A program made the translations under genes and the position numbers. Below the pieces are notes generated by a model. It was not told the DNA's origin, ran no database searches, and worked only from the letters and a program-made list of their open reading frames with translations. Positions 39,048 through 44,379 of a DNA stretch of 64,000 bases are shown piece by piece. This DNA is from Caulobacter vibrioides OR37 (GTDB lineage Bacteria; Pseudomonadota; Alphaproteobacteria; Caulobacterales; Caulobacteraceae): assembly GCF_000372645.1 (NCBI RefSeq), contig NZ_APMP01000001.1, positions 186,001 through 250,000 of the forward strand, written 5' to 3'. The first letter of the stretch is position 1, and the number at the start of each line of letters is the position of its first letter.

Positions 39048-40343
39048 TTAGTGCAGCTTCAAGCGTCCCGACACGCGCTGCTGCAGCAGCCGCGCGATGG
39101 CCAGAGTCGCCGTGCGGCCGACGCCCAGGATCGCCCGGTGGTGGTCGAGGTGCAGCGACATATAGGCCCACTTGGCCAACAGGCCCTCGATGAAGAAGTT
39201 CGGCCCGCCCAGACCGCCCATCAGCGCGCCCACGCCCTTGTTATCGCCCAGCGACACCAGAGAGCCGAAGTCGCGATAGACGAACGGCGTCTGGACATGA
39301 CCTTGGCGCAGTCGCGCGATCAGGACCCGTTCCAGATAGCTGGCCTGCTGGTGCGCCGCCTGGGCGCGGGCGGGAACGGTCTTACCGTCCTTCCAGGGCG
39401 CCGCCGCGCAATCGCCCAGGGCCCAGATGTCGGGCGAGGAGGTCTCAAGTCGATCATTGACCACGAACTGGTTGCCGCGATTGGTCTCCAGGCCGAAGCC
39501 TCGGTTCGCCTCTGCCGCCTTGACGCCCGCCGCCCAGACGATCAGGTCGGCGAGGACGTCGCCCCGGCTGGTCTCCAGCCGGTCGGCGTGGACGGCGAGC
39601 ACCTTGGCGTCCGTCTTCACCGCCACGCCCTTGCGCTCAAGCGCGAGCTTGGCTTTGTCGGCGATCTCCGGGGGCAGGCCGCCCAAAATTCGCTCAGCGG
39701 CCTCGACCACCGTGATGTCCAGCCGGAAGCGTTGCTCGTCGCCAAGGCTGCCCAATAACTCCCGGTGCGCCTCGATCAGTTCGGCCGAGAGTTCGACGCC
39801 CGTGGCGCCGCCGCCGACAATGGCCACGCGCATGATCTTGTCGGTCGAGAACGAAGCCCTGGTGAAGGCGGCCAGCAGCCGCGCATGGAAAACCTCGGCG
39901 TCTTCGGTGCGCTCCAGCAGATAAGCTTGCTCCGCGCCGGGCGTGCCGAACAGGTTCGAACCCGAGCCGATCGCCAGCACGCCATAGGTGAAGGTGATGG
40001 TCCGCTCGGGCGCCAGGACCTGGCCGCCCTGGTCGGTGATCGCCTTCAGGGTCAGACGCTTGGCGCCTGGATCGAAGGTCGCGAGTTCGCCGAGCAGGAA
40101 GTTGAAGCCATTCGATCGGCCCAGGATAGAATACGACACGCCCTCCTGGTGGACGTCCAACGTGCCGGCCGCTACCTCGTGCAGGGTCGGCTTCCAGATG
40201 TGAAAGCTGGAGCGATCGATCAGGAGCACCCTGCGCTTGCCCCCATGGGACGCGATGCGCCGGCCTCCTAGGCGACGGCCCAGCCGCGACGCCAATTCCA
40301 GCCCGCCGGCGCCCCCGCCAACGATGACGATGTCATAATGCAT
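39048..40343 (-). CDS. ndh: Type II NADH:quinone oxidoreductase (Ndh family)
   Basis: A 431-residue two-dinucleotide-fold flavoprotein that passes electrons from NADH to quinone without pumping protons. The FAD site is IVIVGGGAGGLELASRLGRR at the N-terminus, and the NADH site is VAIVGGGATGVELSAELIE (about 180). DIWALGDCAA binds FAD at the C-terminal side. A C-terminal amphipathic part (about 375-431, FFIEGLLAKWAYMSLHLDH) attaches to the membrane. Start ATG 40343; a GTG codon precedes it in frame. An exact TTGAT-N4-ATCAA box ends 10 bases upstream, which suggests oxygen-linked control. Confidence 0.9.
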   Translation of the reverse strand: MHYDIVIVGGGAGGLELASRLGRRLGGRRIASHGGKRRVLLIDRSSFHIWKPTLHEVAAGTLDVHQEGVSYSILGRSNGFNFLLGELATFDPGAKRLTLKAITDQGGQVLAPERTITFTYGVLAIGSGSNLFGTPGAEQAYLLERTEDAEVFHARLLAAFTRASFSTDKIMRVAIVGGGATGVELSAELIEAHRELLGSLGDEQRFRLDITVVEAAERILGGLPPEIADKAKLALERKGVAVKTDAKVLAVHADRLETSRGDVLADLIVWAAGVKAAEANRGFGLETNRGNQFVVNDRLETSSPDIWALGDCAAAPWKDGKTVPARAQAAHQQASYLERVLIARLRQGHVQTPFVYRDFGSLVSLGDNKGVGALMGGLGGPNFFIEGLLAKWAYMSLHLDHHRAILGVGRTATLAIARLLQQRVSGRLKLH

Positions 40344-40352
40344 CACGCGCCC

Positions 40353-40366
40353 TTGATATTCATCAA
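40353..40366 (-). promoter_or_regulatory. FNR/FixK-type box at ndh
   Basis: TTGAT-ATTC-ATCAA (40353-40366) is a perfect copy of the FNR/FixK operator. It ends 10 bases before the ndh ATG, so a bound regulator would overlap the promoter or ribosome binding site and repress. It also overlaps a perfect 16-base palindrome TTCATCAATTGATGAA (40359-40374). Confidence 0.75.
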
Positions 40367-40448
40367 TTGATGAAAAATAGGTTCGTGACCAGTGTTACGC
40401 TAGCGGCGCCGTCACGCCAGTGACGCAACGTCGCACCGCCTCATGGAA

Positions 40449-40471
40449 AAGGCCTCCCGAAAGGAGGCCTT
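40449..40471 (-). terminator. Hairpin terminator after the alpha/beta hydrolase gene
   Basis: AAGGCCTCC (40449-40457) pairs with GGAGGCCTT (40463-40471) around a 5-base loop. In the direction of the hydrolase gene, which ends 11 bases earlier, the stem is followed by TTCC. Confidence 0.75.
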
Positions 40472-40481
40472 GCCCAGCTGT

Positions 40482-41132
40482 CTAGATCGGATTTTCCGCC
40501 AAGCGCTTGTCGAGATAGTCGCTGACGCTTTTCTCGACGCTGGGCAGGTGCTCGGCCCAGAAGTGGGTGGCTTTGTCGATGACCTCGTAGTCGATCGTGA
40601 TGCCCTTCTGGGTGCGCAGCTTGGTGACCACGCGCTCCACCTCGACCGGCGGGGTGATGGTGTCGGCCGAGCCCGTCAGGAAGAGGCCCGAGGCCGGGCA
40701 GGGGGCCAGGAAGCTGAAGTCGTACATGTTGGTCGGCGGCGACACCGAGATGAAGCCGTCCGTCTCGGGCCGGCGCATCAGCAGTTGCATCCCGATATAG
40801 GCGCCGAAATCGAAGCCGGCGACCCAAGTCTGGCTGGCGGCCGGATTCGAGGTCTGCAGCCAGTCCAGAGCGGTGGCGGCGTCGGCCAGTTCGCCGATGC
40901 CGGCGTCGAACTCGCCCTGGCTGCGGCCGACGCCGCGGAAGTTGAAGCGCAGAGTCGCGAAGCCGCGCTTCATGAACAGGTGATACAGCTGAACCGACAC
41001 CGGGTGGTTCATGTGACCGCCGGCCTTGGGGTGCGGGTGCAGGATCAGCGCGATGGGCGCCGTTTCGGTCTTGCCCGGAGAATAGCGACCCTCGATCCGC
41101 CCGGACGCGCCGGTCAAAATCACATCAGGCAT
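40482..41132 (-). CDS. Alpha/beta hydrolase-fold protein with Asp at the nucleophile elbow
   Basis: A 216-residue single-domain alpha/beta hydrolase, related to the small 'HPHPKAGGHM' proteins found near Fe-S genes in Alphaproteobacteria. The oxyanion region is LILHPHPKAGGHMNHPVS, then FNFRGVGRSQGEFD. The nucleophile elbow, GXSXG in most relatives, reads GFDFG (VAGFDFGAYIGMQLL), with Asp for Ser. The rest of the triad is plausible: Asp in GSADTITPP and His in KATHFWAEH. Asp nucleophiles occur in dehalogenases and epoxide hydrolases, so the reaction could differ, or activity may be lost. It is divergent from iscR. Confidence 0.85.
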   Translation of the reverse strand: MPDVILTGASGRIEGRYSPGKTETAPIALILHPHPKAGGHMNHPVSVQLYHLFMKRGFATLRFNFRGVGRSQGEFDAGIGELADAATALDWLQTSNPAASQTWVAGFDFGAYIGMQLLMRRPETDGFISVSPPTNMYDFSFLAPCPASGLFLTGSADTITPPVEVERVVTKLRTQKGITIDYEVIDKATHFWAEHLPSVEKSVSDYLDKRLAENPI

Positions 41133-41217: not shown

Positions 41218-41312
41218 GCCAACGCGTAGCGGGCCACCGAGCCCGCGCGCGAAGTCGCGGCTTGTAGCACACGCAAAAGCCGATGCGCGCGGAATCTGCA
41301 AGGGGTAAGGCG

Positions 41313-41774
41313 ATGCGCCTGAGCACCAAGGGGCGATACGCGGTCATGGCGATGACCGACCTGGCCAAGCGCCAGGACGAAAGCGAGGGCCGCGCCGTGG
41401 CCCTGGCCGAGATCGCCGCGCGCCAGCAGATTTCGCTTTCCTATCTCGAACAGCTTTTCGCCCGCCTGCGCCGCAAGGGGCTGGTGATCAGCGCGCGCGG
41501 CCCGGGCGGCGGCTACCGACTCGCCAAGGCCTCCGCCGAGACCTTCATCGCCGACATCGTGTTGGCGGTCGACGAGCCGCTGCGGGCCACCCGCTGCAAC
41601 TTCACCAAGGGCCAGGCCAAGGGCTGCATGGCCGGCGGCGAGCGCTGCATGACGCATAATCTCTGGGAAGAGATGGGCCGGCAGATCCACGGCTACTTGG
41701 CCAGCGTCTCGGTGGCCGACGTGCTGGCGGGCGAACTGCGTCCAGCGCGCCCGATGGAGATCGCGGCCGAGTGA
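41313..41774 (+). CDS. iscR: Rrf2-family Fe-S regulator IscR
   Basis: A 153-residue winged-helix repressor that senses Fe-S supply and controls the operon it heads. It begins MRLSTKGRYAVMAMTDLA, with recognition helix ISLSYLEQLFARLRRKGLV and wing SARGPGGGYRLAK. Three Cys (C95, C105, C112) and H115 in CNFTKG...GCMAGGERCMTH match the [2Fe-2S] ligands of IscR (three Cys, one His), so cluster sensing is likely. ATG 41313 opens the conserved start. It overlaps the next gene by 4 bases (GTGA). Confidence 0.95.
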   Translation: MRLSTKGRYAVMAMTDLAKRQDESEGRAVALAEIAARQQISLSYLEQLFARLRRKGLVISARGPGGGYRLAKASAETFIADIVLAVDEPLRATRCNFTKGQAKGCMAGGERCMTHNLWEEMGRQIHGYLASVSVADVLAGELRPARPMEIAAE

Positions 41775-42909
41775 ACGCCTCCCGCACATCGGTCTATCTC
41801 GACTACAACGCCACGGCGCCCCTGCGGCCGGAGGCGAAGGACGCGCTGCTGCGCGCCCTGGAGAGCCCGGCCAATCCCTCGTCGGTCCACGCCGCCGGCC
41901 GCGCCGCCCGCGACGTCGTCGAGCGCGCCCGCGCCGAGGTCGCCGCCTTGGTCGGCGTGCCGGCCGGCTCGATCACCTTCGTCAGCGGCGGCACCGAGGG
42001 TAACGCCCTGGCCATCGAGAGCGCCAAGGTCGCGGGCGTCGAGCGGATCATCCTCTCCGCGATCGAGCACGACGCGGTGACCGAAACGGCCAAGGCATCC
42101 GGCCTGCCGGTCGAGGTCCTGCCTGTGGATAACTATGGCGTCGCCGATCTCGGCTGGCTGGCGCAAGCGCTTGAAAAGCCGGGCAAGGCTCTGGTCTGCC
42201 TGATGCTGGCCAACAACGAGATCGGCGTCATCCAGCCTGTGGATAAGGCTTCGGCCCTCGTCCGCGCCCACGATGGCTGGTTGCATGTCGACGCCGTCCA
42301 GGCCGCCGGCAAGATCGCCATCGACTTCTCCGGCCTCGGCGCCGACACCATGGCGCTGTCGGCCCACAAGCTGGGCGGACCGCAGGGCGTGGGCGCGCTG
42401 GTCGCCGGAACCCGCGCCACCGTCACCCGCCGCCTGCACGGCGGCGGTCAAGAGCGCGGCCGCCGGGCCGGCACCGAGAACGTCGCCGGGATCGCCGCCT
42501 TCGGCGCGGCGGCCAAGGCGGCGCGGGAAGGCCTTGCCTCGATGGCCGAACAGGCCCAATGGCGCGACGCCCTGGCCGAGCGGCTGAAGGCGGCTGGCGC
42601 GGTCGTGCTTGGCGAAGGCGCCGATCGCCTGCCGCAAACCCTGTGTTTCGCCGGCGAGGGCTTTGGCTCCGAGGTCCAGGTCATGAACATGGATCTGGCC
42701 GGGATCATGGTCAGCGCGGGCAGCGCCTGCTCGTCGGGCAAGGTCAAGGCCAGCCGCGTGGTGGAAGCCCTGGGCCGCGCCGATCTCGCCCCGTTCGCCC
42801 TGCGTGTCAGCGGCGGTTGGGCGAGCACGGAAGACGATTGGATCAAGTGCGGCGACGCCTGGCTCGCCGCCTGGAAGCGTATCGGCGCCCGGCGCCGGGA
42901 GGTGGCTTA

Positions 42910-42910
<1 letters not shown>
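41771..42910 (+). CDS. Cysteine desulfurase, group I (IscS/NifS type)
   Basis: A 379-residue PLP enzyme that takes sulfur from cysteine. It begins at GTG 41771 inside the iscR stop. Conserved blocks: [61 protein letters not shown], the PLP-Lys in [15 protein letters not shown], and [11 protein letters not shown]. The reactive Cys loop is [14 protein letters not shown], the long exposed loop of group I enzymes. A second, group II enzyme (SufS) is in the same operon. Having both is common in Alphaproteobacteria, and their division of labour is not clear from sequence. Confidence 0.93.

Positions 42911-44375
<1,465 letters not shown>

Positions 44376-44379
<4 letters not shown>

Follow-up and report, generated by a model that had tools for sequence, protein, structure and literature searches.

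An Operator-Like Dyad Overlapping a FixK-Type Box at the Predicted ndh Start Site of Caulobacter vibrioides OR37

The ndh Locus and Its FNR/FixK-Type Box

The locus studied here raises the question of whether a perfect FNR/FixK-type box, located almost at the start of a gene for a type II NADH dehydrogenase (NDH-2), is the element by which this gene is regulated, as proposed in a preliminary description of the same DNA. The analyzed stretch of 64,000 nucleotides from Caulobacter vibrioides OR37 is referred to as the window. The following features of the window are considered first:

39048–40343, minus strand: ndh, type II NADH dehydrogenase-like gene (Pyr_redox_2 and solved relatives)
40353–40366, minus strand: perfect FNR/FixK-type box TTGATGAATATCAA, with the right half ATCAA at 40357–40353
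40449–40471, no strand assigned: hairpin AAGGCCTCC-N5-GGAGGCCTT between the hydrolase gene and the ndh promoter
40482–41132: neighboring alpha/beta hydrolase gene

The NDH-2 identity of the gene downstream of the box was backed by a Pyr_redox_2 domain in its product (Pfam profile search) and by NDH-2 enzymes as its best solved relatives; of 32 NCBIfam families, 25 were displayed, and no equivalog in this set reached its cut-off. The ATG of ndh is located at 40343 and abuts a second in-frame start, GTG 40346. Within the genus, 43 of 75 genomes carry ndh (E ≤ 1e-60). This patchy distribution, together with copies of 62–68% identity in beta-/gammaproteobacterial records (e.g., Ideonella and Diaphorobacter), suggests transfer of the gene. 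The hairpin appears terminator-like by eye and was not reported by the terminator scan, since the rule of the scan requires a longer T run. Further along the window (41283–44379), a gene for an Rrf2 regulator of the IscR type, scoring below the IscR cut-off, is followed by cysteine desulfurase/SUF-like genes, as judged by eye.

The box reads TTGATATTCATCAA on the plus strand (40353–40366) and TTGATGAATATCAA on the minus strand carrying ndh, where it is separated from the ATG by 9 bases (40352–40344) within the sequence CCTATTTTTCATCAATTGATGAATATCAAGGGCGCGTGATG. The perfect box near the ndh start is thus real; the range 40353–40374 given for it previously unites the box with an overlapping palindrome. 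It matches the Caulobacter FixK consensus, TTGAY-N4-RTCAA, perfectly, and its position relative to ndh would suit repression, as had been predicted. Allowing at most one mismatch, one match was detected in the window vs. a mean of 0.40 in shuffled sequences, and 450 kb of the own contig contained two exact boxes, compared to none in each of four resamples. The genome scan recommended beforehand retrieved six exact copies of TTGATN4ATCAA in 4.43 Mb and none of the reversed control. Three of these are located at ndh, cydA and ccoN; the others fall in intergenic DNA before an uncharacterized ORF (L005), within the ORF of L004 and right where a TetR-like ORF begins (L002). The L005 box (1501–1514) lies in AT-rich DNA with the ORF 167 bases on. 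Moreover, TTGATCACGGTCAA occurs twice, in L008 and L009, approximately 1.2 kb apart, in a stretch that looks duplicated.

Crp-Type Proteins and the FixK Reading of the Box

As anticipated, the genome encodes a FixK of the Caulobacter type (NF050806, 366.7 bits, cut-off 300), and an orthologue was found in all 13 genomes of the clade comprising the closest ndh orthologues (87–100% protein identity, own gene included). No true FNR came to light: six full-length Crp-type proteins were read, all from loci above the HTH_Crp_2 family cut-off, and not one of them featured an N-terminal cysteine cluster; canonical FNR was rejected as the regulator on this basis. A seventh locus above the cut-off, L073, appeared by eye to encode an Lrp-type protein.

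Binding of FixK or another Crp/FNR-type protein to TTGATGAATATCAA, at approximately +1 to +14, would repress ndh at low oxygen, so that NADH is channeled into the proton-pumping NDH-1 under the conditions in which cydA and ccoN are turned on. In support of this reading, the box is perfect, cydA and ccoN are among the six exact genomic copies, and FixK is present in 13/13 genomes of the clade, nine of which kept the ndh box. The strongest point in its favor is that the only two exact boxes of genome G174 are those at ndh and cydA. Furthermore, FNR-repressed promoters of E. coli include some with sites overlapping the +1 start (PMC3688515).

Upstream DNA was read for 36 of the 43 genus ndh orthologues and for seven rows from other genera of the family, supplemented by named copies that largely came from the same genomes. 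TTGA-N6-TCAA within 200 bases upstream occurred in 9 of these 43 rows (36 plus 7), all belonging to the clade of 13; the box was absent from the other 27 of the 36 genus orthologues, and none was detected in the 150 bases upstream of the beta-/gammaproteobacterial orthologues L149–L153 and L155. Upstream DNA of a third clade of ndh orthologues is unrelated. Another copy of TTGATGAATATCAA, at G134:C241, adjoins an unrelated gene (chemotaxis-type protein by eye) and was dismissed. Across the clade, the box lies 9–12 bases before the ATG. Four of the 13 close orthologues have a disrupted right half, although FixK is present:

L017, box lost: TTGATGAATAAAAG
L018, box lost: TTGATGAATATCAG
L052, box lost: TTGATGAATATTAT
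L054, box lost: TTGATGAATAATGA

On the ndh gene tree, these losses need four changes, two of which are forced by well-supported branches. Right-half columns 11–14 are kept in 11, 10, 12 and 10 of 13 rows, which does not exceed the conservation of the leader behind them, while the spacer GAAT is invariant in 13/13.

As controls, cydA, ccoN and fixK, all preceded by FixK-type boxes (that of fixK shared with fixT), were looked up by the same method in the same 13 genomes; ccoN, FixK and FixT were named by family models above cut-off, cydA by Pfam. The cydA gene was found in 12/13 genomes with the box kept in 12/12, beginning 89–93 bases before the ATG. For ccoN, found in 10/13, the box was kept in 9/9 readable cases, beginning at 70–72 bases; L096 was left out as the gene is too near the contig end. 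Both fixK and a box within the fixT–fixK gap were present in 13/13. No ccoN was found (E ≤ 1e-60) in G174, G192 and G161, though FixK is present. In G157 (L089, L090), cydA is in two pieces with a stop and looks broken or misassembled; its FixK box is retained. Mean pairwise differences were as follows:

ndh box: ends 0.157, spacer 0.000
cydA box: ends 0.000, spacer 0.511
ccoN box: ends 0.000, spacer 0.549
fixT box: ends 0.000, spacer 0.314

A FixK site is expected to combine conserved ends with a free spacer, and the control boxes indeed have invariant ends (TTGA/TCAA) and drifting spacers. At ndh, the profile is reversed, which weakens the FixK reading. The claim that the box is the selected feature at ndh was not supported by this comparison, nor does conservation support FixK as the sole explanation. 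Taken together, we regard repression of ndh through this box as rather unlikely, though conceivable in the nine genomes with a perfect box. FixK usually activates from near −41.5; activation of ndh from such a position is unlikely, since the transcription start would then fall inside the conserved first codons.

A Conserved Block at the Predicted ndh Promoter and Its Operator-Like Dyad

The element that is kept at ndh is a block extending from TAT(A/G)TT to GATGAATA, which is nearly unchanged in the 13 genomes, while DNA farther upstream has drifted. The block and the DNA just upstream of it comprise the following features:

40398–40403, minus strand: candidate −35, weak and speculative, proposed from position only; CTAGCG here, CTGGCG in most relatives
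40374–40379, minus strand: predicted −10 hexamer, reading TATTTT in the window and either TATATT or TATGTT in close relatives
40367–40368, minus strand: predicted ndh transcription start, deduced from the spacing to the −10-like hexamer; purine in 13/13 close orthologues
40358–40375, minus strand: operator-like dyad TTTCATCAATTGATGAAT, 18 bp, motif TTCAYC-N4-GRTGAA

The inner part of the dyad is a perfect 16-bp palindrome, TTCATCAATTGATGAA (40359–40374), sharing eight bases with the box. Alignment columns −9 to −4 as well as 1–10 are identical in 13/13 rows. The kept block runs from the likely −10 (TATATT) through TTCAYC-N4-GATGAA, and TTC-N10-GAA around the predicted start was present in 24/24 rows of clades 1 and 2. 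No genome other than that of the window has a perfect palindrome here: its siblings show pairing at 5–7 of 8 positions and clade 2 at 5 of 8. The dyad is rare, with one exact copy in 450 kb of own-contig sequence and none in four resamples.

If TATATT is the −10, transcription would begin at the first purine found at a typical spacing from it, which immediately precedes the box, and the dyad would be centered on this start. Caulobacter RpoD motifs begin 34–37 bases before the start (PMC4287350), and by this measure the weak CTGGCG is rightly placed in most rows. A CTGGCG-like −35 is absent in L054, L055 and L017, and the sigma-70 scan gave no match. SigT promoters follow the pattern GGAAC-N16-CGTT; neither such a promoter nor a small upstream ORF beginning with the ATG of TTGATGAAT was consistent across rows by eye. 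The best reading of the box itself is that it formed at the junction of the leader ATCAA with TTGATGAAT, a conserved part of the dyad, and that it is partly a by-product of the dyad.

The block might also be kept without any regulator, as ndh core promoter and leader required by RNA polymerase and the ribosome, with box and dyad as by-products. Consistent with this explanation, the block contains a plausible and suitably spaced −10, it is conserved throughout, with most of the interior of the dyad included, and the second half-site of clade 2, GAGGAA, is a possible ribosome site; part of the conservation may be due to −10 and leader. The explanation has to be weighed against the occurrence of the dyad elsewhere.

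Recurrence of the Dyad Upstream of bdhA and a TonB-Dependent Receptor Gene

The 13 genomes were screened with the pattern TTTCAYCRATTGATGAAT, allowing up to two mismatches and using the reversed pattern as control. The dyad was detected at ndh in 13/13 genomes and at 14 other places, and the reversed pattern in none of the genomes. Contexts of 13 of the 14 places are of two kinds: seven are bdhA-type, six TonB-receptor-type, and no third kind was encountered. The fourteenth, G194:C427, has a bdhA-type sequence. The seven bdhA-type sites lie between yaaA and bdhA, 70–82 bases before the ATG of bdhA, which encodes 3-hydroxybutyrate dehydrogenase. The six TonB-type sites lie upstream of a TonB-dependent receptor gene, with a TetR gene opposite in five cases and the contig end in the sixth. 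The own genome carries a bdhA-type site, a TetR/TonB site with a more diverged center and a looser dyad upstream of scoA, ATTCATCAAGGGTTGAAT; for bdhA, scoA and scoB, the respective family models scored above cut-off. At up to two mismatches, no bdhA-type site was found in 5/13 genomes and no TonB-type site in 7/13, the own genome among them.

TTCAYC-N4-GRTGAA fits 26 of the 27 pooled sites (13 ndh, 7 bdhA, 7 TonB), the motif being broken in L018, and the variable half-site base occupies the same Y/R position at all three promoters. A mere core promoter would not lead one to expect that the half-sites recur around different centers before bdhA and the TonB receptor gene, with the same Y/R variation, and we consider it quite improbable that the ndh block is kept without a regulator. 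The suspicion that the palindrome is a second site was strengthened: it is better kept than the box and recurs before bdhA and between the TetR gene and the TonB receptor gene.

Two further observations concern these regions. In the rows L199–L211, the DNA separating the TTCAYC dyad from the ATG of bdhA contains a second short dyad, which reads TGYTGC-N3-GCARCA in most of them and resembles a PhaR-type site. At L159 (1501–1516), TTCATCGATTGATTAA lies between a TonB receptor gene and a divergent TetR gene; the TetR gene beside L159 occurs in 3/13 genomes only and was rejected as the regulator.

The TetR protein encoded beside the TonB-receptor site (L212:3617–4375 in the own genome) possesses a TetR_N domain and the C-terminal domain PF17939. 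Its best NCBIfam match is PsrA with 75.5 bits, which, at a cut-off of 300, means that it is not scored as PsrA. It is a candidate regulator of the dyad and no more, since its gene adjoins one dyad site. The dyad sits between tetR and the TonB receptor gene; at the two loci examined, the DNA upstream of tetR itself showed none.

Proposed Regulation of ndh and Relation to Known Systems

Based on conservation, recurrence and rarity of the dyad, we lean, with slightly better than even confidence, towards an operator for a regulator other than FixK, placed over the ndh start site and common to bdhA and the TetR/TonB pair. A dimeric regulator would bind the TTCAYC-N4-GRTGAA dyad at ndh. Since the predicted start site lies within the dyad, the bound regulator would block RNA polymerase until an inducer frees the dyad. 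This inducer might derive from the use of fatty acids or 3-hydroxybutyrate, so that NDH-2 would rise along with the enzymes making NADH from such substrates. In most of the clade, FixK may additionally bind the ndh box, the ATCAA part of which has not been maintained by selection.

E. coli FNR represses ndh from a site centered at −50.5 (PMC3688515). The Caulobacter locus resembles this system in its NDH-2 gene, in the consensus TTGATnnnnATCAA and in the predicted repression; it differs in that the box lies at the predicted start, no cysteine-cluster FNR occurs among the six Crp-type proteins, and conservation does not track the box. For cydA, ccoN and fixT, activation by FixK in Caulobacter was reported (PMC3751524). 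The ndh box shares with this regulon (cydA, ccoN, fixT, ftrB) the motif and the presence of the regulator in the same genome, whereas the ccoN and cydA boxes lie 56–79 bases before the ATG and keep their ends, and the ndh box lies at 9–12 bases with its ends not kept. Likeness to PsrA-type TetR regulators of fatty acid metabolism is seen in PF17939 and the best NCBIfam match, and repression by a TetR protein would agree with an operator dyad close to the start. However, the score is far under the PsrA cut-off, and PsrA sites are of the GAAAC/GTTTC type, from which the ndh dyad differs. FNR repression of ndh in E. coli and the Caulobacter FixK regulon are already known, while the titles and abstract beginnings retrieved from the open-access literature contained no report of FixK acting on Caulobacter ndh or of the TTCAYC-N4-GRTGAA motif.

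More speculatively, and with considerable doubt, the sites may belong to a small regulon of Caulobacter. A single TetR-type repressor that senses the use of fatty acids or ketone bodies would act via TTCAYC-N4-GRTGAA on 3-hydroxybutyrate dehydrogenase, the TonB receptor, possibly 3-oxoacid CoA-transferase, and NDH-2. NDH-2 would be brought in when such carbon sources flood the cell with NADH, and FixK could override this control from the overlapping box in part of the clade.

This locus illustrates that even a textbook-perfect box can be a poor guide: the conservation profile favors the overlapping palindrome. With three or four promoters and one candidate regulator, the analysis provides targets that are directly testable. 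If the operator is real, the choice between the pumping and the non-pumping NADH dehydrogenase in Caulobacter would be tied to the type of substrate and not to oxygen alone.
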